From contig JANQGH010000042.1 of assembly GCA_028277405.1 (NCBI GenBank), positions 1 to 64,000 on the forward strand: 64,000 nt of DNA, given 5' to 3'. Origin of the DNA: Alphaproteobacteria bacterium (GTDB lineage: Bacteria; Pseudomonadota; Alphaproteobacteria; DSM-16000; Inquilinaceae). A program made the translations under genes and the position numbers. Under the pieces are notes generated by a model. It was given only the letters and a program-made list of their open reading frames with translations, made no database searches and was not told the DNA's origin. Of the stretch, positions 202 through 11,059 are shown piece after piece (position 1 is the first letter of the stretch; the number at the start of each line of letters is the position of its first letter).

Positions 202-522
202 TCAGTTCTTGGCGCCGGTCATGTCGCGAATCCATGTGAGCGCGGCGACGGCCCGTGGCAGACCGAGCGTGGGGATCGCCAACAATGCGATCTGTTCCAG
301 CTCCTGGGTACTGATGCCCTCTGCAACCGCGCGGCGTGCGTGGGAGTGTGTGGCCCCTTCGGAACCCACTCCGACGGCGAGCGCGAGCTTCGCCAGCCGG
401 ACCGTCTTTTTGTCCAGCGGCCCCGCGGAGGCACAGGCCGCGCCCAGCTTGGCATAGGCCTGCCAGATATCGGGATGGGCTTCGGCAACTCGGCCGGCGG
501 CGGAGGGAAGCTTTTGAGGCAT
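202..522 (-). CDS. Carboxymuconolactone decarboxylase-like (AhpD fold) small protein
   Basis: This is a 106-residue all-helical protein with the carboxymuconolactone decarboxylase layout: a helix ending VRLAKLALAVGVG, then EGATHSHARRA in the position of the usual redox/active-site helix, then IALLAIPTLGLPRAVAAL. The CxxC pair that gives AhpD its peroxidase-reductase chemistry is absent; the only cysteine is an isolated one near residue 30. Thiol chemistry is therefore unlikely. A good ribosome site (AAGGA) precedes the ATG. It lies 24 bases behind the Crp/Fnr gene on the same strand and is probably co-transcribed, which suggests a link to anaerobic or nitrogen-oxide metabolism. The substrate is unknown. 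Confidence 0.8.
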   Translation of the reverse strand: MPQKLPSAAGRVAEAHPDIWQAYAKLGAACASAGPLDKKTVRLAKLALAVGVGSEGATHSHARRAVAEGISTQELEQIALLAIPTLGLPRAVAALTWIRDMTGAKN

Positions 523-546: not shown

Positions 547-1245
547 TTAGATATCTGGGTCGTCGATCAGCGGATTGGGTTTGGCCAAACGCACGAGATC
601 GTCCGGCTTTGTCAGTCCAATGTCGGCGCCATCGACCTCGACACCATAAGGCTTCAAGGTGCCGAAGGCGCGTGACAGGTTTTCCGGCGTCATGCCGAGG
701 CGGCCCGCGAGCGTGCGCTTGTCGACGGGCAGCACCAGTTGCCCAGTTCCGCCCTGCTCGATCTCTTGGCGCAGCAGATAATTGGCAAGCCGCTCGACAC
801 CGGTCCTCAGTTTCAGATCCTTCTGCGCCTTGACCACCGCGCGATAGCGTGAGGCCAGTTCGGTGATGATCGCCTTGTCGAAATGCCGGTCGCGCGCCAT
901 GACGGCGCGGATGTTTTCCGCCGGGATCAGCAGTACGCTCGATTTTTCCAGCGTGCGCGCCGACATCAGATAGACCGCGTCCTTCAAAACCGCCGCCAGG
1001 ATGAAGGTGGCCACGGGCCGAACGACCTCCATCGTCGTCTCGCGGCCGTTCGACCGGGCGAACAGTTCCACCGCACCGGAAACGACGATGTGCAGGAAGT
1101 CGGCTGGCTCGCCTTCGGTGATCAACTGGACCTGTCGGGGGAAGCTTTGCAGGTAGGCGATCTGCATCAGGTCGGCGAAGTTGTCTTCCTCCATATCCGC
1201 GAACAATCGCAGCTTTCGGACCAGGGTCTGGTCACCGTCACGCAT
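547..1245 (-). CDS. Crp/Fnr-family transcriptional regulator of the nitrate reductase locus
   Basis: This is a 232-residue regulator with an N-terminal cyclic-nucleotide-binding-type beta barrel (residues about 10-120), a long dimerisation helix and a C-terminal winged helix. The recognition helix reads TPENLSRAF, with E188, S191 and R192 forming the ExxSR set known to read TTGAT half-sites in FNR. No cysteine is present, so it cannot carry the FNR iron-sulfur cluster; a DNR/NnrR-like NO or haem sensor is possible but unproven. I chose the ATG at 1243-1245 because GGGGGAG lies just upstream; the alternative ATG at 1285-1287 has no ribosome site and sits on the operator palindrome. It is divergent from narK1 and probably controls the whole nar cluster. 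Confidence 0.88.
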   Translation of the reverse strand: MRDGDQTLVRKLRLFADMEEDNFADLMQIAYLQSFPRQVQLITEGEPADFLHIVVSGAVELFARSNGRETTMEVVRPVATFILAAVLKDAVYLMSARTLEKSSVLLIPAENIRAVMARDRHFDKAIITELASRYRAVVKAQKDLKLRTGVERLANYLLRQEIEQGGTGQLVLPVDKRTLAGRLGMTPENLSRAFGTLKPYGVEVDGADIGLTKPDDLVRLAKPNPLIDDPDI

Positions 1246-1285
1246 GTCGATGTCTCCCCCTAAGACAGGGGTATGATTGTCGGTC

Positions 1286-1311
1286 ATTCACTTGATAATT
1301 ATCAAGTGAAT
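1286..1311. promoter_or_regulatory. Perfect 26-bp palindrome containing an FNR-type box, upstream of the regulator
   Basis: The core TTGATAATTATCAA occupies 1292-1305 and the symmetry extends without mismatch to 1286-1311. A minus-strand TATAAT at 1310-1315 overlaps its edge, so a start point for the regulator mRNA would fall inside the palindrome. Occupancy would then repress the regulator gene. The autorepression is inferred; the palindrome is seen directly. Confidence 0.75.
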
Positions 1312-1405
1312 TATAGTCATTTGCCTTTTTCAAGGTAGATTTACAGCAAAATGAATAATAAGGAATATCAAGGCAGTAATTATTTGTGCGCTGCAAACAA
1401 GTGAT

Positions 1406-1444
1406 TTGATCTCGATCAAATAAAAATGGCCGGCCATTGATAAT
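1406..1444 (+). promoter_or_regulatory. FNR-type activator site and -10 element of the nar operon
   Basis: TTGATCTCGATCAA at 1406-1419 is a perfect TTGAT-N4-ATCAA site. GATAAT at 1439-1444 can serve as the -10 hexamer, placing the site centre roughly 39-42 bases before the start point, the usual class II activator position. No good -35 is present, as expected for an activator-dependent promoter. It lies 92 bases before the narK1 ATG. Confidence 0.72.
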
Positions 1445-1510
1445 CGTCTGTTCTGCCTTTGCGCGTCCGCCGAAAGAGCGGGCCGCCAAACTTCAGGTAG
1501 GACGATCACA

Positions 1511-2902
1511 ATGCAGCAATTGGCCGGGGTCACTGTCGGACAACAACGCGGCGCATTAACCGCCAGCACGCTCGCCTTCACGGTCTGTTTCGCCGTCTGG
1601 ACCATCTTTTCGATCATCGGCCTGTCGATCCAGGAAGAGCTGGGACTGACCGACACGCAGTTCGGCATTCTGATTGCGACCCCGATTCTAACCGGGTCGT
1701 TGAGCCGGATTTTTCTCGGCATCTGGACCGATCAGTTCGGTGGCCGACGGGTCTATTCGATCGTCATGATCCTGACCGCGATCGCGGTTTGGCTGCTGTC
1801 CTCGGTCGACAGCTACTTCATGTTCCTGCTGGCCGCGCTGGGTGTCGGCCTGGCCGGCGGCTCGTTCGCCGTCGGCATCGCCTATGTCTCGCAATGGTAC
1901 GACAAGGACCATCAAGGCACCGCGCTGGGCATCTTTGGCATCGGCAATGTTGGCGCGGCGGTAACCAATTTCGGCGCCCCCTTCCTGATGGTGGCGTTCG
2001 GTTGGTCCATGACCGCGCAGATCTATGCCGTCGTGTTGCTGATCACCGCCGTCTTGTTCTTCATCTTCACCAAGGAAGACCCCGCGACGGCCCGGCGCAA
2101 GGCACGTGGCGAAAAACCGGTCTCCGCCTTCATGCAGTTGACGCCTTTGAGACGGCTGCAGGTCTGGCGCTTCTCGCTCTACTACTTCTTCGTCTTTGGC
2201 GCCTACGTCGCGCTCGCGCTCTGGCTGCCGCATTATTATGTCGGCGTCTACGGGCTGGACATTCCGACCGCCGGCATGCTGGCCGCGGCCTATGCGCTGC
2301 CGGGCAGTATCTTTCGCGCGCTCGGCGGCTACCTGTCGGACAAGTTGGGCGCCCGGGCGGTGATGTACTGGACGTTCATCGTTTCCGCCGTGATCTGCTT
2401 TTTTCTCAGCTATCCGCCGACGGACTATGTCGTCCAGGGTGTCGAGGGGCCGATTGCGTTCAACCTGACCATCGGGTTGCCGGTTTTCGTGGCCCTGACC
2501 TTCATCCTGGGCTTCTTCATGAGCCTCGGTAAGGCGGCGGTCTACAAGCACATTCCCGTCTATTACCCGGACCATGTCGGCGCCGTCGGTGGACTGGTCG
2601 GCATGATCGGCGGCCTCGGCGGCTTCATTCTGCCGATCATGTTCGGGCTGATGCACGACATCGTCGGCGTGTGGACCAGCTGCTTCATGCTGCTCTTCGT
2701 TTTCGTCACCGTGGCGCTCGTTTGGATGCACTTTGCCATCCAGCGCATGGAGCGGAAGGCCAGCGCCGAACAGCTGGAAGGCCTGCCGGAGTTGCCCGAA
2801 CTGGTCGAACTGCACGGGCCGGACCATGTCGGCGCCTTAGGTCCGTCGGGCGAGAAAAACACGACACGGACGAACACGCGACAGGCCAATCCGGCCACGT
2901 AA
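1511..2902 (+). CDS. narK: NarK1-type nitrate/nitrite transporter (MFS)
   Basis: This is a 463-residue major facilitator with about 12 membrane helices. It has the nitrate-porter signatures: GIGNVGAAVTNFGAPF after the fifth helix region and GMIGGLGGFILP in the second half. These place it with NarK1-type proteins, thought to be proton-coupled nitrate importers. After the last helix there is a hydrophilic tail of about 45 residues rich in Glu and Leu, then Thr and Asn. The upstream ribosome site is weak (TAGGA). It is the first gene of the nar operon, with narK2 starting 24 bases later. Tandem narK1-narK2 is also known in denitrifiers, where the two may be fused; here they remain separate. Confidence 0.93.
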   Translation: MQQLAGVTVGQQRGALTASTLAFTVCFAVWTIFSIIGLSIQEELGLTDTQFGILIATPILTGSLSRIFLGIWTDQFGGRRVYSIVMILTAIAVWLLSSVDSYFMFLLAALGVGLAGGSFAVGIAYVSQWYDKDHQGTALGIFGIGNVGAAVTNFGAPFLMVAFGWSMTAQIYAVVLLITAVLFFIFTKEDPATARRKARGEKPVSAFMQLTPLRRLQVWRFSLYYFFVFGAYVALALWLPHYYVGVYGLDIPTAGMLAAAYALPGSIFRALGGYLSDKLGARAVMYWTFIVSAVICFFLSYPPTDYVVQGVEGPIAFNLTIGLPVFVALTFILGFFMSLGKAAVYKHIPVYYPDHVGAVGGLVGMIGGLGGFILPIMFGLMHDIVGVWTSCFMLLFVFVTVALVWMHFAIQRMERKASAEQLEGLPELPELVELHGPDHVGALGPSGEKNTTRTNTRQANPAT

Positions 2903-2926: not shown

Positions 2927-4327
2927 ATGAAGATGGCAACAGCCGAACCAGTCAGTGTCCGCCGGGGACACACGCTCACGGACTGGCGACCGGACGACCC
3001 GGCATTCTGGGACGCCACGGGCCGTAAGATCGCGTCGAAAAACCTGTGGATATCGATCCCATGCCTGCTGCTGGCCTTCTCGGTCTGGCTGGTCTGGAGC
3101 GTCGTCGTCGCCGAACTTCCGTCGATCGGGTTTACCTACAATACAGACCAGCTGTTCTGGCTGGCGGCGTTGCCGGGACTGTCCGGTGCAACCTTGCGCA
3201 TCTTCTATTCGTTCATGGTGCCCGTTTTCGGCGGCCGGCTGTGGACGACTTTGACGACGGCATCATTGATCATACCGGCGGTCGGTATTGGCTATGCCGT
3301 TCAAAACCCAGACACCCCCTACAGCGTCTTTTTGGTCCTGGCGCTGCTCTGCGGTCTGGGCGGCGGCAATTTCGCCTCGTCAATGGCCAACATCAACTTC
3401 TTCTATCCGAAAAGCGCCAAGGGTCACGCGCTGGCGCTGAATGCCGGCCTGGGCAATGCCGGGGTCAGTGTCATGCAGTTCGTCGTGCCGCTGGTGGTCA
3501 CCGCGAGTGTCTTCGGCGTCATCGGCGGCGAACCGCAGGTGACAACGGAAGGCGGCCGGATGTGGTTACAGAATGCGGGCTTCATCTGGGTCCCGTTCCT
3601 GATCATCACCGCTCTGCTCGCCTGGTTTGGCATGGACAATATTGCCAGCGCCAAGGCCTCGTTCCGGGACCAGTCGATCATCTTCAAGCGGTCGCACAAT
3701 TGGATCATGTGCGTGCTCTACACCGGCACATTTGGGTCCTTCATCGGCTACTCGGCGGGTTTCCCGCTGTTGGCCCTGACGGAGTTCCCCGAGGTTCATT
3801 CTCTACAGTTTGTCTTTCTCGGGCCGCTGATCGGCGCCTTGAGTCGAGCCGCGACGGGGTGGGTGTCTGACAAGTTCGGCGGTGGCCGTGTCACGTTCTG
3901 GACCTTCATCGTGATGATCCTGGCGGTCGGCGGTGTGCTGTTCTTCCTATCGATCAAGGACACGCCGGGCGCGTTCTGGGGCTTCTTCGCGATGTTCATG
4001 ATCCTGTTCTTCGCGACGGGCGTGGGCAACGCGTCGACCTTCCAGATGATCCCCTCGATCATGCGCCAACAGGTCAAGCGCCTGATGCCCGGCCTCGACG
4101 ATACGACGTTCGTGCGCCAGGCCGAGCTCGAATCCGGTGCGATCATCGCCTTTACCTCGGCGATCGCCGCCTATGGCGCGTTCTTCATCCCCAAGGCCTA
4201 TGGCTCTTCGATTGCCTATACCGGCGGGCCGGAAATCGCGCTTTGGGGCTTCATGGTGTTCTACGCGCTGTGCGTGGTCGTGACCTGGTTCTTCTATACG
4301 CGGCGCAACGCGCCGGTCCCGTGCTGA
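2927..4327 (+). CDS. narK: NarK2-type nitrate/nitrite antiporter (MFS)
   Basis: This is a 466-residue MFS transporter with a hydrophilic N-terminal segment of about 40 residues before the first helix. It carries NAGLGNAGVSVMQFVVP (nitrate signature 1) and the NarK2-typical segment IIAFTSAIAAYGAFFIP near the C-terminus. NarK2-type proteins exchange external nitrate for cytoplasmic nitrite during respiration. TGGAGGAAG lies a few bases before the ATG. It sits between narK1 and narG in one transcription unit, with narG starting 13 bases after its stop. The functional split between the two paralogues follows from family knowledge and is not shown here. Confidence 0.93.
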   Translation: MKMATAEPVSVRRGHTLTDWRPDDPAFWDATGRKIASKNLWISIPCLLLAFSVWLVWSVVVAELPSIGFTYNTDQLFWLAALPGLSGATLRIFYSFMVPVFGGRLWTTLTTASLIIPAVGIGYAVQNPDTPYSVFLVLALLCGLGGGNFASSMANINFFYPKSAKGHALALNAGLGNAGVSVMQFVVPLVVTASVFGVIGGEPQVTTEGGRMWLQNAGFIWVPFLIITALLAWFGMDNIASAKASFRDQSIIFKRSHNWIMCVLYTGTFGSFIGYSAGFPLLALTEFPEVHSLQFVFLGPLIGALSRAATGWVSDKFGGGRVTFWTFIVMILAVGGVLFFLSIKDTPGAFWGFFAMFMILFFATGVGNASTFQMIPSIMRQQVKRLMPGLDDTTFVRQAELESGAIIAFTSAIAAYGAFFIPKAYGSSIAYTGGPEIALWGFMVFYALCVVVTWFFYTRRNAPVPC

Positions 4328-4340
4328 GGAGTATTGACGC

Positions 4341-7300
4341 ATGAGCCAACTGCTCGATCGGCTGAACTTCTTCACCAAGCGTAATCTGGACGCGTTTTCC
4401 GACGGCTACGGCGTGACCACCCGCGAGGATCGGCGCTGGGAGGACGGCTATCGCAAGCGCTGGCAGCACGACAAGATCGTGCGCTCCACCCATGGCGTGA
4501 ACTGCACCGGTAGTTGCTCCTGGAAGATCTACGTCAAGGGCGGCATCGTCACCTGGGAAACCCAGCAGACCGACTATCCGCGCACCAGGCCGGACCTGCC
4601 GAACCACGAGCCGCGCGGCTGTTCGCGAGGTGCGAGCTATAGCTGGTATATGTATTCCGGCAGCCGGGTGAAGTATCCGCTGGTCCGTTCCCGCCTGGTC
4701 AGGTTGTGGCGCGAGGCGCGCCGGACCCTGCCGCCGGTGGCGGCCTGGAAGTCGATCGTCGAGGACCCTGCTAAGCGCGCTTCCTATATCACGAAGCGGG
4801 GCCTGGGCGGTTTCGTGCGCGCGGAGTGGGACGAGGTGAACGAGATCATCGCCTCGGCCAATGCCTACACGGCCAAGACCTACGGCCCCGACCGGATCAT
4901 TGCCTTCTCGCCGATCCCGGCCATGTCCATGGTCTCCTATGCCGCCGGCTCGCGCTACGTGTCGCTGATGGGCGGCACCTGCATGTCCTTCTACGACTGG
5001 TATTGCGACCTGCCGCCGGCCTCGCCGCAGACCTGGGGCGAGCAGACGGACGTGCCGGAGAGCGCCGACTGGTACAATTCCGGCTTCCTGATCCTGTGGG
5101 GCTCCAACGTGCCGCAGACGCGCACGCCGGACGCCCATTTCTATACCGAGGCGCGTTATCGGGGCGCGAAGTCCGTCGTGGTCAGCCCGGACTATTCCGA
5201 GGCGGCCAAGTTCTCCGACCTGTGGCTGCATCCCAAGCAGGGCACCGACAGCGCGCTGGCCATGGCCATGGGCCACGTCATCCTGCGCGAGTTCCACATC
5301 GACCGGCAGGCGGAGTATTTCGAGGCCTACGCTCGGCAGTACACCGACATGCCGATGCTTGTGCGCCTGGAAGAGCGGGACGGGCGCTACGTGCCGGGCC
5401 AATTGCTGCGCGCATCTGAGTTCGACGGTGATCTCGGCCAGGCCAACAATCCCGATTGGAAGACGGTCGCAATCGACCGGACGTCGGGCAAGATCGTCGT
5501 GCCGCGCGGCTCCGCCGGCTTCCGCTGGGGCGAGCAGGGGCATTGGAACCTGGAAAAGAAGGACGCCGACGGCAACGAGATCGATCCGGTCCTGACCCTG
5601 ATCATGGAGGGCGATCACGACGATACCGTCGATGTCGGTTTTCCGTACTTCGGCAATCGCGAGCACGATCATTTCGAAGGGACTGACCATCCCGACGTGC
5701 TGGCGCGCCGCGTGCCGGTGAAGTCGGTCAAGCTGAAAGACGGCGACGCCCTGGTCGCAACCGTCTTCGACCTGTTCGTCGCCAATTATGGCCTCGATCG
5801 CGGCCTGGGCGGCGAGCATGTCGCCACCGGCTTCGATGAGAACGTACCCTACACGCCGGCCTGGGCGGAGAAGATCACCGGCGTGCCGGCCGATCACATC
5901 GTCACCGTGGCGCGGGAGTTCGCGCGCAATGCCGAGAAGACCAATGGCAAGTCCATGGTCATTCTCGGCGCCGGCCTGAACCACTGGTACCACATGGATA
6001 TGAACTACCGGGGGATCATCAATCTCCTGGTCATGTGCGGCTGTGTCGGCCAGTCGGGCGGCGGCTGGTCCCACTATGTGGGCCAGGAAAAGCTGCGGCC
6101 GCAGACGGGCTGGCTGCCGCTCGCTTTCGCGCTCGATTGGGGCCGTCCGCCGCGGCACATGAACTCGACCTCGTTCTTCTACGCCCACACCGACCAATGG
6201 CGTTACGAGTCGCTGGGCGTCGACGAAATCCTGTCCCCGACGGCACCCGAGGGACCATGGGACGGCGCCCTGATCGACTACAACGTCCGGGCCGAACGCA
6301 TGGGTTGGCTGCCCTCCGCACCCCAGCTCAAGACCAACCCTTTGGAGGTCTCCAAGGCTGCGGCTGCAGCCGGCGTGGAGCCGAAGGACTACGTCGTCGA
6401 CGCTCTCAAATCCGGCGATCTGCGCATGTCCTGCGAAGAGCCGGACGACCCGGCGAACTGGCCGCGCAACCTGTTCGTCTGGCGCTCCAACCTGCTGGGC
6501 TCGTCCGGCAAGGGGCACGAGTACTTCCTGAAGCACCTGTTGGGCACGTCCAACGGCATGATGAACAAGGATCTGGGCGAGGAAGGCGGTGCGAAACCGC
6601 AGGAGGTCGCCTGGCAGGACAAGGCGCCGGAAGGCAAGCTGGACCTGCTGGTGACGCTCGATTTCCGCATGTCGACCACCTGTATCAACTCCGACATCGT
6701 GCTGCCCACGGCCACCTGGTACGAAAAGAACGACCTCAACACCTCCGACATGCACCCCTTCATCCACCCGCTGACCGGCGCGGTGGACCCAGCCTGGGAA
6801 TGCCGATCGGACTGGGACATCTATAAGGGCATCGCGCGCAAATTCTCCGAGGTCGCGCCGGAGGTGCTGGGCGTCGAGAAGGACGTCGTCATGGTGCCGA
6901 TCCTGCATGACACGCCGGGTGAGATCGCCCAGCCCTTCGATGTGAAGGACTGGAAGAAGGGCGAGACCGAGCCGATCCCGGGCAAGACCATGCCCAACAT
7001 CGCGGTGGTCGAGCGCGACTATCCGAACCTTTACAAGCGCTTCACCGCGCTCGGTCCGCTGATGACCAAGATCGGCAATGGCGGCAAGGGCATCACCTGG
7101 AACACCGAGCACGAGGTGGACCATCTCCGCGCGCTGAACGGCGCGGTGACGGAGGAGGGACCGACCAAGGGCATGCCCCGGATCGAAACCGACATCGATG
7201 CCAGCGAGGTGATCCTGATGCTGGCGCCGGAGACCAACGGCGAGGTCGCGGTCAAGGCCTGGCAGGCCTTGGCCAAGAACACCGGTCGTGATCATGCGCA

Positions 7301-8087
7301 TTTGGCGGAGCCGAAAGAAGACGAGAAGATCCGCTTCCGCGACGTCGTCGCCCAGCCGCGCAAGATCATCTCGTCACCGACCTGGTCGGGGCTGGAATCC
7401 GAACACGTCTGCTACAATGCCGGCTACACCAACGTGCATGAGCTGATCCCCTGGCGCACCTTGAGTGGCCGCCAGCAGCTCTATCAGGACCATCTGTGGA
7501 TGCGCGCCTTCGGCGAGGGCTTTTGCGTCTACCGTCCGCCGGTCGACCTGAAGACGGTTAAGCCGGTGATCGACGCCAAGTCCAACGGCAAGCCGCAGGT
7601 GGTGCTGAACTTCATCACGCCGCATCAGAAGTGGGGCATCCACTCCACCTACAACGACAATCTGCTGATGCTGACCCTGAACCGGGGCGGTCCCGTGGTC
7701 TGGATCTCCGAGGCCGACGCCGCCAAGGCCGGCATCGAGGATAATGACTGGGTCGAGGCCTACAACGTCAACGGCGCCCTGACGGCGCGCGCGGTCGTCT
7801 CCCAACGCATGAAGGAGGGGACGATCTACATGTACCACGCGCAGGAAAAGATCATTAACACGCCGGGCTCTGAGACCACCGGCCAGCGCGGCGGCATCCA
7901 CAACTCCGTCACCCGCGCGATCGTCAAGCCGACCCACATGATCGGCGGCTACGTACAGCAATCCTACGGCTTCAACTATTACGGCACGGTCGGCTCGAAC
8001 CGCGACGAGTTCGTCATCGTTCGAAAGATGGAAAACGTCGACTGGCTCGATCAACCCGTGGCCCAGCCCATGGAGGCGGCAGAATGA
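4341..8087 (+). CDS. narG: Respiratory nitrate reductase, alpha (molybdenum) subunit
   Basis: This 1248-residue subunit is almost the same length as E. coli NarG. It reduces nitrate to nitrite at a bis-MGD molybdenum centre on the cytoplasmic side of the membrane. The FS0 cluster ligands are visible as H51, C55, C59 and C94 in HGVNCTGSC and RGCSRGA. The Mo-ligating aspartate is D219 in FYDWYCDLPPASP. There is no cleavable Tat signal, as expected for the inward-facing enzyme. A strong GAGGAG ribosome site precedes the ATG. The stop overlaps the narH start (ATGA), consistent with translational coupling. No molybdenum cofactor genes are linked in this window. Confidence 0.98.
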   Translation: MSQLLDRLNFFTKRNLDAFSDGYGVTTREDRRWEDGYRKRWQHDKIVRSTHGVNCTGSCSWKIYVKGGIVTWETQQTDYPRTRPDLPNHEPRGCSRGASYSWYMYSGSRVKYPLVRSRLVRLWREARRTLPPVAAWKSIVEDPAKRASYITKRGLGGFVRAEWDEVNEIIASANAYTAKTYGPDRIIAFSPIPAMSMVSYAAGSRYVSLMGGTCMSFYDWYCDLPPASPQTWGEQTDVPESADWYNSGFLILWGSNVPQTRTPDAHFYTEARYRGAKSVVVSPDYSEAAKFSDLWLHPKQGTDSALAMAMGHVILREFHIDRQAEYFEAYARQYTDMPMLVRLEERDGRYVPGQLLRASEFDGDLGQANNPDWKTVAIDRTSGKIVVPRGSAGFRWGEQGHWNLEKKDADGNEIDPVLTLIMEGDHDDTVDVGFPYFGNREHDHFEGTDHPDVLARRVPVKSVKLKDGDALVATVFDLFVANYGLDRGLGGEHVATGFDENVPYTPAWAEKITGVPADHIVTVAREFARNAEKTNGKSMVILGAGLNHWYHMDMNYRGIINLLVMCGCVGQSGGGWSHYVGQEKLRPQTGWLPLAFALDWGRPPRHMNSTSFFYAHTDQWRYESLGVDEILSPTAPEGPWDGALIDYNVRAERMGWLPSAPQLKTNPLEVSKAAAAAGVEPKDYVVDALKSGDLRMSCEEPDDPANWPRNLFVWRSNLLGSSGKGHEYFLKHLLGTSNGMMNKDLGEEGGAKPQEVAWQDKAPEGKLDLLVTLDFRMSTTCINSDIVLPTATWYEKNDLNTSDMHPFIHPLTGAVDPAWECRSDWDIYKGIARKFSEVAPEVLGVEKDVVMVPILHDTPGEIAQPFDVKDWKKGETEPIPGKTMPNIAVVERDYPNLYKRFTALGPLMTKIGNGGKGITWNTEHEVDHLRALNGAVTEEGPTKGMPRIETDIDASEVILMLAPETNGEVAVKAWQALAKNTGRDHAHLAEPKEDEKIRFRDVVAQPRKIISSPTWSGLESEHVCYNAGYTNVHELIPWRTLSGRQQLYQDHLWMRAFGEGFCVYRPPVDLKTVKPVIDAKSNGKPQVVLNFITPHQKWGIHSTYNDNLLMLTLNRGGPVVWISEADAAKAGIEDNDWVEAYNVNGALTARAVVSQRMKEGTIYMYHAQEKIINTPGSETTGQRGGIHNSVTRAIVKPTHMIGGYVQQSYGFNYYGTVGSNRDEFVIVRKMENVDWLDQPVAQPMEAAE

Positions 8088-9610
8088 GAATCCGTGCGCA
8101 AATCGGCAAGGTCCTGAACCTGGACAAGTGCATCGGCTGTCACACCTGTTCCGTCACGTGCAAGAACGTTTGGACCAACCGGGAAGGCATGGAATATGCC
8201 TGGTTCAACAATGTCGAGACCAAGCCCGGCATCGGCTATCCCAAGGAATGGGAGAACCAGCAGCGCTGGAACGGCGGCTGGGTGCGAACCGGGAACGGTC
8301 GGGTTCGGCCGAAGATGGGCCCGAAATGGCGCATCCTGGCCAAGATCTTCGCCAACCCCGACCTGCCGCAGATCGACGACTATTACGAGCCGTTCACCTT
8401 CGATTACGACCATCTGCAGAATGCGCCCGAACTGCCGGCGTCGCCGACGGCACGGCCGCGCTCTCTGATCTCGGGCGAGCGCATCGAAAAGATCGAATGG
8501 GGGCCGAACTGGGAAGAGATCCTGGGCGGCGAGTTCTCCAAACGATCTAAGGACGTGAACTTCGACGGCGTAGAGAAGGAGATCTACGGCCAGTTCGAAA
8601 ACACCTTCATGATGTATCTGCCGCGCCTGTGCGAGCACTGTCTGAACCCGACCTGTGCCGCGTCCTGCCCCTCCGGCGCGATCTACAAGCGCGAGGAGGA
8701 CGGCATCGTCCTGATCGACCAGGAGAAGTGCCGGGGCTGGCGCATGTGCGTCTCGGGCTGCCCCTACAAGAAGGTCTATTACAACTGGTCCACGGGCAAG
8801 TCGGAGAAGTGCATCTTCTGCTACCCGCGTATCGAGGCGGGCGAGCCGACGGTGTGCTCGGAAACCTGCGTCGGGCGCATCCGCTATCTGGGCGTGCTGC
8901 TCTACGACGCCGACCGGATCGAGGCGGCGGCCTCGGCGGAAGACCCACAAGACCTCTATCAGGCCCAGCTCGACATCTTCCTCGACCCGCACGACCCGGA
9001 GGTGATCGCGCAGGCCAAGAAGGATGGCGTGCCGGCGGCGTGGCTGGAGGCCGCGAAGCGCTCGCCGGTCTACAAGATGGCGATGGACTGGAAGGTCGCC
9101 TTCCCGCTGCATCCGGAATACCGCACCTTGCCGATGGTCTGGTACGTGCCGCCCCTGTCGCCGATCCAGTCGGCGGCCGAGGCCGGCAAGATCGGCGTCG
9201 ATGGCGAGATGCCGGACGTGCGCAACCTGCGTATCCCCGTGCGCTATCTCGCCAACCTGTTGACCGCCGGCAAGGAGGAGCCAGTGGTGCAGGGTCTGGA
9301 ACGCATGTTGGCGATGCGCGGCTATATGCGCGCCAAGACCGTCGACGGCGTCATCGACGAGGCGATTGCCGAGCGCGTCGGCCTGACCTCGGCGCACATC
9401 GAAGACATGTACCAGACCATGGCGATCGCCAACTACGAGGACCGGTTCGTCATCCCGACCAGCCATCGCGAGACCGGCGAGGACGCCTACGATCTCTACG
9501 GCTCGTGCGGCTTTTCGTTCGGCAATGGCTGCTCCGACGGGATCAGCACGGGCGGCATGTTCGGCACGACGAACAAGCGCGCCGAAGAAGCGGCGCGGGA
9601 GGACGCATGA
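8084..9610 (+). CDS. narH: Respiratory nitrate reductase, beta (iron-sulfur) subunit
   Basis: This 508-residue electron-transfer subunit carries four ferredoxin-type cysteine groups. The first is C16, C19, C22 and C26 in CIGCHTCSVTC; the others are CEHCLNPTCAASC, CRGWRMCVSGC and CIFCYPR with CSETC. The tryptophan in CRGWRMC replaces a cysteine, the known reason why one NarH cluster is [3Fe-4S]. It passes electrons from NarI haem to NarG. It overlaps narG and narJ by four bases each. Confidence 0.98.
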   Translation: MRIRAQIGKVLNLDKCIGCHTCSVTCKNVWTNREGMEYAWFNNVETKPGIGYPKEWENQQRWNGGWVRTGNGRVRPKMGPKWRILAKIFANPDLPQIDDYYEPFTFDYDHLQNAPELPASPTARPRSLISGERIEKIEWGPNWEEILGGEFSKRSKDVNFDGVEKEIYGQFENTFMMYLPRLCEHCLNPTCAASCPSGAIYKREEDGIVLIDQEKCRGWRMCVSGCPYKKVYYNWSTGKSEKCIFCYPRIEAGEPTVCSETCVGRIRYLGVLLYDADRIEAAASAEDPQDLYQAQLDIFLDPHDPEVIAQAKKDGVPAAWLEAAKRSPVYKMAMDWKVAFPLHPEYRTLPMVWYVPPLSPIQSAAEAGKIGVDGEMPDVRNLRIPVRYLANLLTAGKEEPVVQGLERMLAMRGYMRAKTVDGVIDEAIAERVGLTSAHIEDMYQTMAIANYEDRFVIPTSHRETGEDAYDLYGSCGFSFGNGCSDGISTGGMFGTTNKRAEEAAREDA

Positions 9611-10332
9611 TGGCCAACACCTTCAAGGTCTTGTCGATCCTCATGACCTACCCGTCGACGGAGATTGCGGCTGCGGTCCCGGACCTGAAACGGGTCCTCG
9701 CTGACGAGGGGCTGGTCCCCGACGGCTTGCAGCGCCGGTTGAACAGACTGTGTGACGAGCTCACCGATCGTGAGCTGATCGACTTGCAAGAACGCTACGT
9801 GCTGCTGTTCGACCGGTCGCGCTCGCTCTCGCTGCACCTGTTCGAGCATGTCCATGGCGAAAGCCGGGACAGGGGCCAGGCCATGGTCGATCTCATGGAG
9901 TTGTACGAGCGGCATGGCCTGGCGATCGACGCCAAGGAACTGCCGGATTACCTGCCGCTGTTTCTGGAGTTTCTCTCGACGTTGCCGCTGGCAGACGCAC
10001 GCACCCTGTTGGCGGAGCCGTTGCCCGTGATCACGGCCCTGAAGCAACGCCACCGCAAGCGTGACAGCGCCTATGCCGTCGTCTTCGAGGTGCTGGAGGT
10101 GCTGGCGGCGGGAAAGGCGAAACCCGCCGAGGCGGCGACACTGGCCACCCCGCCGGATGAAGACCCGGACGATCACGCCGCCCTCGACCGGATCTGGGAA
10201 GAAGAGGCGGTCAGTTTCGGCGGCGCCGGCGCGATGGCGCCAGACGGCTCATGCCCGGCATCCCGCGACATGCTGGCTCGCATGACACCTGCACCAACCA
10301 GTCCCGCCGCGAGGAGGCCGTTCAATGGGTGA
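9607..10332 (+). CDS. narJ: Nitrate reductase assembly chaperone (delta subunit)
   Basis: This 241-residue helical protein contains the NarJ signature HLFEHVHGESRDRGQAMVDL and starts with a typical LSILMTYPS helix. NarJ binds apo-NarG, helps insert the molybdenum cofactor and holds back membrane docking; it is not part of the mature enzyme. The start ATG at 9607 overlaps the narH stop. An acidic, low-complexity C-terminal third (about residue 170 onward) is common in the family. The end overlaps narI by eight bases. Confidence 0.94.
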   Translation: MMANTFKVLSILMTYPSTEIAAAVPDLKRVLADEGLVPDGLQRRLNRLCDELTDRELIDLQERYVLLFDRSRSLSLHLFEHVHGESRDRGQAMVDLMELYERHGLAIDAKELPDYLPLFLEFLSTLPLADARTLLAEPLPVITALKQRHRKRDSAYAVVFEVLEVLAAGKAKPAEAATLATPPDEDPDDHAALDRIWEEEAVSFGGAGAMAPDGSCPASRDMLARMTPAPTSPAARRPFNG

Positions 10333-11059
10333 GTTCATGAACACGCTGGTCTTCGGCATCTATCCCTACATCGCGCTGGTCGTTTTCGTGGTCGGCACGA
10401 TCATCCGCTACGACCGCGAGCCCTATACCTGGCGCTCCGGCTCCAGCCAGCTTTTGCGGCGCAGGCAGTTGATCTGGGGCTCGGTGCTGTTTCATGTCGG
10501 GGTGCTGATCGTTCTGTTCGGTCACATCGTCGGTTTGCTGACGCCGATCGCTTTCTTCGACGCCATCGGCATCTCCCATGGTGCCAAGCAGCTGCTCGCC
10601 ATCGTGGTCGGGGGCGTGGCCGGTGTGTTCGCGCTGATCGGCGCCACCATGCTGGTGCATCGCCGCCTGTTCGATCCGCGCATCCGCGCCACGTCGAAAT
10701 TCAGCGACAACGCGATCATCTCGATCCTATGGCTGCAGCTTGTGCTGGGCCTGGCCACGATCCCGATTTCTCTCGGCCACCTCGACGGCCACGAGATGGT
10801 CAAGTTCATGTCCTGGGCCCAGGGCATCTTCATCTTCGACACAGGTGCCGCCGGCTACATCGCGGACGTAAACCCGATCTTCAAGCTGCACCTCTTCCTG
10901 GGCCTGACGATCTTCCTGATCTTCCCGTTCACACGCCTGGTCCACATGCTCAGCGTGCCGCTGCGCTATCTCTGGCGGCCGGGCTATCAGGTCGTGCGCA
11001 CCTATCGCCGTCGCGAGCGCGGCAATGCCGCGGGCATTCCGTCGGCGCCGGCGGAGTAG
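10325..11059 (+). CDS. narI: Respiratory nitrate reductase, gamma (cytochrome b) subunit
   Basis: This 244-residue, five-helix membrane subunit oxidises quinol at the periplasmic side and carries two b haems. Candidate haem ligands H57, H67, H189 and H207 fall in HVGVLIVLFGH, FKLHLFLG and RLVHMLS, matching the spacing of the E. coli ligands. The N-terminal motif FGIYPYIAL is typical. The ATG at 10325 is used here; the ATG at 10337 is also possible. The C-terminal RPGYQVV followed by basic residues is cytoplasmic. Confidence 0.97.
   Translation: MGEFMNTLVFGIYPYIALVVFVVGTIIRYDREPYTWRSGSSQLLRRRQLIWGSVLFHVGVLIVLFGHIVGLLTPIAFFDAIGISHGAKQLLAIVVGGVAGVFALIGATMLVHRRLFDPRIRATSKFSDNAIISILWLQLVLGLATIPISLGHLDGHEMVKFMSWAQGIFIFDTGAAGYIADVNPIFKLHLFLGLTIFLIFPFTRLVHMLSVPLRYLWRPGYQVVRTYRRRERGNAAGIPSAPAE

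Follow-up and report, generated by a model that had tools for sequence, protein, structure and literature searches.

The window (the whole 64-kb stretch of DNA analysed here) carries a regulator gene divergent to narK1-narK2-narGHJI, with two FNR-type boxes and a series of weaker half-sites in the gap between them (Table 1). The regulator open reading frame (547-1287, reverse strand) encodes 246 amino acids that include no cysteine and contain the recognition helix TPENLSR, in agreement with the first-pass annotation, which had described a cysteine-free Fnr-type regulator with an ExxSR helix. Matches to PF00027 (59 bits) and PF13545 (41 bits) in Pfam place the window protein in the CRP/FNR superfamily, and all 50 structural matches listed are of CRP/FNR type by title. 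A structure model (pLDDT 86, pTM 0.69) supports the fold only; the relative orientation of its domains cannot be relied on (rmsd 7-17 A to the structural matches listed). The protein is probably 232 amino acids long, because a start codon at the position of residue 15 (ATG, GTG or TTG; ATG 1245 here) is kept in 80 of 85 relatives that have both boxes, and because the Shine-Dalgarno sequence GGGGGAG precedes ATG 1245. In 38 of these 85 relatives, an in-frame stop lies ahead of any other start. A start at residue 15 would place the 26-bp palindrome described below in the narR leader or promoter, outside the gene.

Table 1. Features of the narR-narK1 region, with positions in the window
Feature	Position	Strand	Remarks
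Carboxymuconolactone-decarboxylase-like gene	202-522	-	24 bp after narR, same strand
narR orthologue, Crp/Fnr family	547-1245	-	232 amino acids from the conserved start; the ORF reaches ATG 1287
narR-proximal box, TTGATAATTATCAA	1292-1305		AT core, C/G flanks; predicted NarR autorepression operator and lattice anchor
TATAAT	1310-1315	-	Possible narR -10 (choice of the first-pass annotation); shares 2 bases with the palindrome end
Lattice unit 1	1314-1327	-	3/10 box matches
Lattice unit 2, TTGCTGTAAATCTA	1336-1349	-	8/10 box matches; 44 bp from the operator
Lattice unit 3, TTGATATTCCTTAT	1358-1371	-	7/10 box matches; 66 bp from the operator
Lattice unit 4 and AAAYAA element (here AAATAAT, about 1379-1385)	1379-1393	-	4/10 box matches
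narK-proximal box A, TTGATCTCGATCAA	1406-1419		Candidate class II activating site, NarR and/or Fnr
narK1, MFS nitrate transporter	1511-2902	+	Divergent target
narK2, nitrate/nitrite transporter	2927-4327	+	
narGHJI	4341-11059	+	Pfam match for NarI (10325-11059); names of G, H and J taken from ORF translations

On the basis of sequence and gene order, the window regulator is an orthologue of Paracoccus NarR and as such of a known kind. The NarR proteins of P. denitrificans and P. pantotrophus are 51% identical to the window protein (E 3e-71), and the window gene lies divergent to narK-narGHJI, the arrangement that characterizes NarR. Paracoccus narR is divergent to narK, with two boxes 136 bp apart, and each of 11 Paracoccus records among those listed holds exactly one matching place; passages of PMC9409073 identify Pden_4238 as narR and Pden_4237 as narK. 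The linkage extends to the family, with NarK matches in the flank of 55 of 60 genome loci and a NarK1-like match on the opposite strand for 104 of 115 proteins. A sample of 385 genomes of the class contained homologues at E <= 1e-40 in 28 of them, the window's own genome included; order-level samples covered orders of 2 to 25 genomes.

The family name is a source of confusion. NCBIfam model NF006901 (FtrB; cut-off 211) scores the window protein at 333 bits and the Paracoccus NarR proteins at 342 and 335 bits; since it matches Paracoccus NarR too, annotations as FtrB hide NarR, and the name cannot separate them. With the Caulobacter-specific FtrB model NF050815, the window protein reaches 244, below the cut-off of 300. 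Caulobacter ftrB is described within the FixK hypoxia network in the available part of PMC3751524. The NF006901 equivalog model also matches an Azospirillum relative located beside nos and nnrS genes. Two narR loci each are present in the assemblies of Martelella radicis (L036, L040) and Rhizobium straminoryzae (L047, L051); the two R. straminoryzae gaps are nearly identical, and L051 is without a NarK match.

The carboxymuconolactone-decarboxylase-like gene following narR is also found beside narR in nine other loci, and all 10 proteins have SEGAxHS(H/R)xR in common. AhpD-type members carry a cysteine motif. With SEGAxHS(H/R)xR in its place, the carboxymuconolactone-decarboxylase-like protein is probably not a thiol peroxidase. 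Elsewhere in the genome there are genes for two FNR-type regulators that have cysteine clusters at the N-terminus (G000 C98:19187, L065/L138; and C98:128084, L067), and a perfect FNR box lies about 100 bp upstream of the probable start of the former. Both of these proteins could read the same box as NarR. Another perfect box, C41:9386 (L134), precedes an ORF that we take to be ccoN/fixN.

The window contains two exact copies of TTGATNNNNATCAA and no more, one at 1292-1305 and the other at 1406-1419, both in the narR-narK1 gap. This confirms the two perfect TTGAT-N4-ATCAA sites noted earlier in this gap; 0.01 were expected in the window, and none of 100 shuffles contained two. In the whole 6.2-Mb assembly there are nine exact boxes, two of them in this gap, and a reversed control pattern does not occur. 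The core is AATT in the narR-proximal box and CTCG in box A, which fits the family pattern given below. Around the narR-proximal box extends a 26-bp palindrome, ATTCAC-TTGATAATTATCAA-GTGAAT (1286-1311). Its proposed overlap with the narR -10 stands to the extent of the two bases shared with TATAAT, but this hexamer has no good -35 at 17 bp; by eye, an alternative narR promoter, TTGATA-N18-GACAAT, uses the box as its -35. Similarly, the proposal that box A occupies an activating position for narK1 is plausible, and box A plausibly lies at about the class II position for narK, but no clean -10 was apparent by eye for exactly -41.5. Sphingopyxis ftrB is divergent to narU with three FNR boxes, one of them at -42.5 from the transcription start, according to excerpts of PMC7713065. 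This arrangement speaks for box A as a class II site, and narU/ftrB comes closest as a precedent for a gap with several boxes. The cysteine-type FNR proteins of this genome probably use box A as well.

The two boxes are of different types among relatives. A regulator match was present in 119 loci, 85 of which had both boxes at <=2 mismatches, and 71 non-redundant loci remained after dropping spacers at least 65% alike. Boxes at <=1 mismatch numbered 92 in 62 gaps, against 1.15 expected. Across the 71 loci, the narR-proximal box has on average 0.25 GC among its four core bases and mostly C/G flanks, whereas the core of box A is of the CTAG type (2.06 GC of 4) and its flanks are free. By distance to the start codon, 37 of the 71 loci are of an SD type, with the proximal box 17-37 bp ahead of the start and over or close to the Shine-Dalgarno region, and 32 are of an upstream type, with the box further upstream; two loci fall between these types. 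SD-type loci with a box spacing of 134-138 show a promoter just upstream, in which the -35 matches best at r-43 and the -10 at r-22 and r-20, of which r-20 gives a 17-bp spacer to the -35. In upstream-type loci the box itself resembles a -35 hexamer: base 5 is C, as in the consensus TTGACA, in 23 of 32 loci (21 TTGAC, 2 TTAAC) compared with 2 of 37 SD-type loci (p = 5e-9, uncorrected for kinship), and a -10-like hexamer follows 16-18 bp downstream more often than in shuffled sequences (3.0 against 2.26±0.17, 29 loci). Judged by position, the narR-proximal box covers the narR promoter region in either locus type.

Were the proximal box to activate narR as a class II site, the start at +41.5 would fall inside narR in 38 of the 71 loci and leave a leader of <15 nt in 58; in the window, the leader would be 11.5 nt. 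We rejected such activation on this geometry. Because the proximal box lies on the promoter or Shine-Dalgarno sequence and class II geometry is excluded in many orthologues, autorepression is favoured over activation of narR, as the first-pass annotation had thought likely, and the arrangement points to a likely two-operator control with narR autorepression. Degenerate narR-proximal boxes occur in Martelella and Cohaesibacter, and among 12 distant narR-like loci (22-40% identity) eight have one box, one has two and three have none. Six Parvularculaceae/Marinicaulis loci (L034, L046, L048, L049, L050 and L052) have no box A at <=2 mismatches; the same six share CGTCTCGTCACG about 110 bp upstream of the proximal box, at about the place of box A.

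We observed that the distance between the two boxes is quantised. It is 93, 112-116 or 134-138 bp (22n+2 to 22n+6) in 68 of the 71 non-redundant loci, the other three having 107, 124 and 167; these three were left out of the phase tests and kept in the TCAA count, the box-type comparison and the class II count. Pair spacings in the first 62 loci were 114 (nine), 134 (one), 136 (eight) and 137 (19), with three others. The class-level set of 28 loci (two duplicates removed) gave 112, 114, 115 (three), 136 (two), 137 (three) and 93 (one), and one locus has a third site, which adds pairs at 48 and 64. Among 24 loci fetched after the lattice described below had been conceived, 19 had two boxes at <=1 mismatch and five had one; all 19, seven of which belong to one genus, include a pair at 112-115 or 136-138, and L146 has two extra pairs from a third site. 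The spacing in the window is 114 bp. This quantisation is explained by degenerate CAA half-sites in the spacer, which follow a 22-bp lattice with the narR-proximal box as its anchor. An AAAYAA(G) element is located 35-41 from the start of box A (consensus), at about -70 to -76 from the predicted narK start. Its distance from box A is fixed in both spacing classes, which therefore probably differ by one unit inserted between AAAYAA and the operator. As a narR -10 or a narK -35, AAACAAG gave no consensus fit by eye.

An alignment of 35 non-redundant 137-type gaps revealed conserved AAACAAG, CA, TCAA, TTG, TA and TCAA between the boxes, and the positions of their CA(A) match a 22-bp grid whose anchor is the narR-proximal box. 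Over the 71 loci, the spacers contain 105 TCAA words, of which 61 coincide with the grid and 15 deviate from it by one base, so that 76 are at phase 0 or 21 of 22. For the 48 discovery loci, the box match at grid phase scored 4.04 of 10, compared with 2.59±0.09 after shuffling. A strict holdout consisted of 14 loci that were collected once the lattice had been conceived and were less than 60% alike to every discovery locus, with a shared genus left out; it gave 3.47 against 2.74±0.18 (z = 4.0, 0 of 1000 shuffles as high), a weaker effect than in discovery and with phase 21 (3.22) close behind phase 0 (3.47); 17 of its 21 TCAA words were on the grid or one base off. For a wider later set of 20 loci the values were 3.88 and 2.80±0.14 (z 7.6), but this set includes relatives of the discovery set, namely six loci of one discovery-set genus, two of which, L146 and L147, are identical to L041 and L044, respectively. 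When periods of 14-40 were scanned, 22 gave 3.99 and the next best 2.99. With one locus for each of 48 genus-like groups, assigned by hand from record titles, the match was 3.97 against 2.66±0.09. The lattice phase was the top of 22 phases in 41 of 68 loci, the window among them. As loci share ancestry, p values overstate independence.

Within a locus, the lattice units are alike only at the C-A-A of the right half-site, which argues for repeated sites rather than duplicated DNA; tandem duplication as the source of the lattice was rejected for this reason. At the corresponding phases for the left half, TTGA is present in 24 of 66 cases; eight of these belong to unit 2, the unit in which the narR -35 is located. 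The window units are uneven, with 10 (operator), 3, 8, 7 and 4 matches of 10. Box A usually misses the lattice by 4-5 bp, and on its narK side the phase test detected no lattice signal. Eight non-redundant loci with the proximal box only did not pass the lattice test (2.95 against 2.60±0.2). A control of narK loci lacking narR consisted of the five of 29 loci without a regulator match, two of which were usable. Of other candidate sites, we rejected 11-bp direct repeats of response regulators, given that only 1 of 105 TCAA words is at phase 11 (the half-period), and IHF sites, given that no TTR followed ATCAA by eye in the few inspected. In several Parvularculaceae, TTG(A) is one or two bases off the grid, as noticed after the phase test. 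We found no description of a NarR operator array or of 22-bp FNR arrays in the available portions of the open-licence PMC literature. Within the literature searched, the 22-bp operator array across the narR-narK gap is a new architecture of a known regulator.

Concerning the signal, no cysteine or histidine is present at >=90% in 104 narK-linked homologues, and none is invariant or near-invariant in A1. No cysteine column exceeds 55 of the 104 homologues, and 48 of them have exactly one cysteine. The N-terminal cysteine cluster of FNR is absent from the window protein, which has no cysteine at all. Sensing through an Fe-S cluster or haem is unlikely because neither residue is conserved in the family. 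The FNR relatives DNR and NnrR, which are without an Fe-S cluster, are NO/haem sensors. For NnrR, this is also stated in passages of PMC4771820. That the window protein is a haem protein of this kind sensing NO appears very improbable: DNR is a structural and sequence relative, but among characterised proteins NarR is the closest, the gene is located beside nar, and a Paracoccus narR mutant fails with nitrate but denitrifies with nitrite, as excerpts of PMC3541799 describe. We set NO/haem sensing aside as unlikely for want of a conserved ligand candidate. The first-pass annotation had left the signal wide open (NO, haem or other), which no longer applies to a NarR orthologue whose family conserves no histidine or cysteine as a haem ligand. 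Paracoccus NarR is presented as nitrate/nitrite-responsive and as working with FnrP (parts of PMC3541799, PMC8139620 and PMC4771820), and as needed for effective denitrification with nitrate (PMC3541799, in part). By analogy, the signal of the window NarR would be nitrate/nitrite. An Fe-S cluster is ascribed to NarR in a passage of PMC9409073 and is not supported by the sequences considered here.

We consider it fairly probable that NarR and FNR control nar, that the operator autorepresses narR, and that the 22-bp half-sites couple both through a NarR array. A NarR dimer, having neither an Fe-S cluster nor a conserved haem ligand, would respond to nitrate/nitrite and, together with a cysteine-containing FNR protein, control the divergent narK1K2GHJI operon. 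Box A, with its usual FNR/FixK-type core at about the class II position for narK, would activate nar, and NarR on the AT-cored operator at 1292-1305 would repress narR; in relatives the operator is placed on the -35 hexamer or between the start site and the Shine-Dalgarno sequence. Half-sites recurring every 22 bp, that is, two helical turns or one dimer length, would allow further NarR dimers to bind one after another, starting at the operator and extending in the direction of box A, presumably cooperatively, and a single nucleoprotein array would thus couple nitrate sensing, narR shut-off and nar activation. The conserved 22-bp half-site series suggests a switch that acts as a row of protein and not as single bound pairs. 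A point against the array is the conservation, on average, of the right half-site (CAA) alone, since a symmetric FNR dimer would be expected to favour both halves. The most specific form, in which 5 to 7 NarR dimers form a contiguous, nitrate-gated row that spans the gap, represses narR and remodels the nar promoter, is possible, and we put it forward tentatively.

The retention of CAA alone and in a single orientation would also fit an architectural lattice, made of phased flexible CA steps or of sites for another protein, that bends the gap for contact between FNR and RNA polymerase while NarR occupies one or two boxes. The off-lattice position of box A and the fixed AAAYAA element are compatible with such a role. 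We regard it as rather doubtful, given the TTGA words at left-half phases (24 of 66, including the eight in unit 2 at the narR -35) and a lattice in register with the strong operator; the single TCAA of 105 at the half-period phase speaks against binders of 11-bp direct repeats. Alternatively, FNR/FixK alone might bind both boxes, with the proximal box activating narR in low oxygen and NarR acting elsewhere or as a co-activator at box A. The genome has suitable candidates in its two FNR-type proteins with N-terminal cysteine clusters and ExxSR helices, one of them preceded by a box, and the additional FNR boxes in Sphingopyxis were proposed as possible activators of ftrB (PMC7713065, in part). 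However, the position on the Shine-Dalgarno sequence or -35 leaves little or no room for activation of narR from -41.5 in 58 of 71 loci, and the two boxes consistently differ in core; we judge this explanation unlikely.

According to a passage of PMC9409073, the mechanism by which NarR controls nar is not known, and no NarXL homologue was reported found in this group in the accessible text of PMC8139620. The conserved operator array makes the control of nar by NarR directly testable. If the proposed NarR array is correct, a CRP/FNR protein would give a sharp nitrate response in a group without a reported NarXL homologue, and a CRP/FNR regulator would work as an array instead of as isolated dimers. 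Promoter spacing would then evolve by whole lattice units, accounting for the quantised narR-narK promoter distances across many alphaproteobacterial genera.

In comparison with known systems, the window regulator is closest to Paracoccus NarR, with which it shares 51% identity, the divergent narK and the pair of boxes. It differs from Paracoccus NarR in that the box spacing of 114 bp is one lattice unit less than 136, that narK1 and narK2 are separate ORFs, and that the protein has no cysteine, whereas the Paracoccus proteins have one and two scattered cysteines (one in P. denitrificans); moreover, the operator array is absent from the published description of Paracoccus NarR as far as the available open-licence PMC text extends. 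The FtrB proteins of Caulobacter and Sphingopyxis have the NCBI family name NF006901 in common with it. FNR, FnrP and FnrL resemble the window protein in fold, ExxSR helix and TTGAT-N4-ATCAA box, but the window protein is without the N-terminal Fe-S cysteines. Like DNR and NnrR, it is a CRP/FNR denitrification regulator without an Fe-S cluster; unlike them, the window NarR is without a conserved haem-ligand candidate and is tied by synteny to nar.
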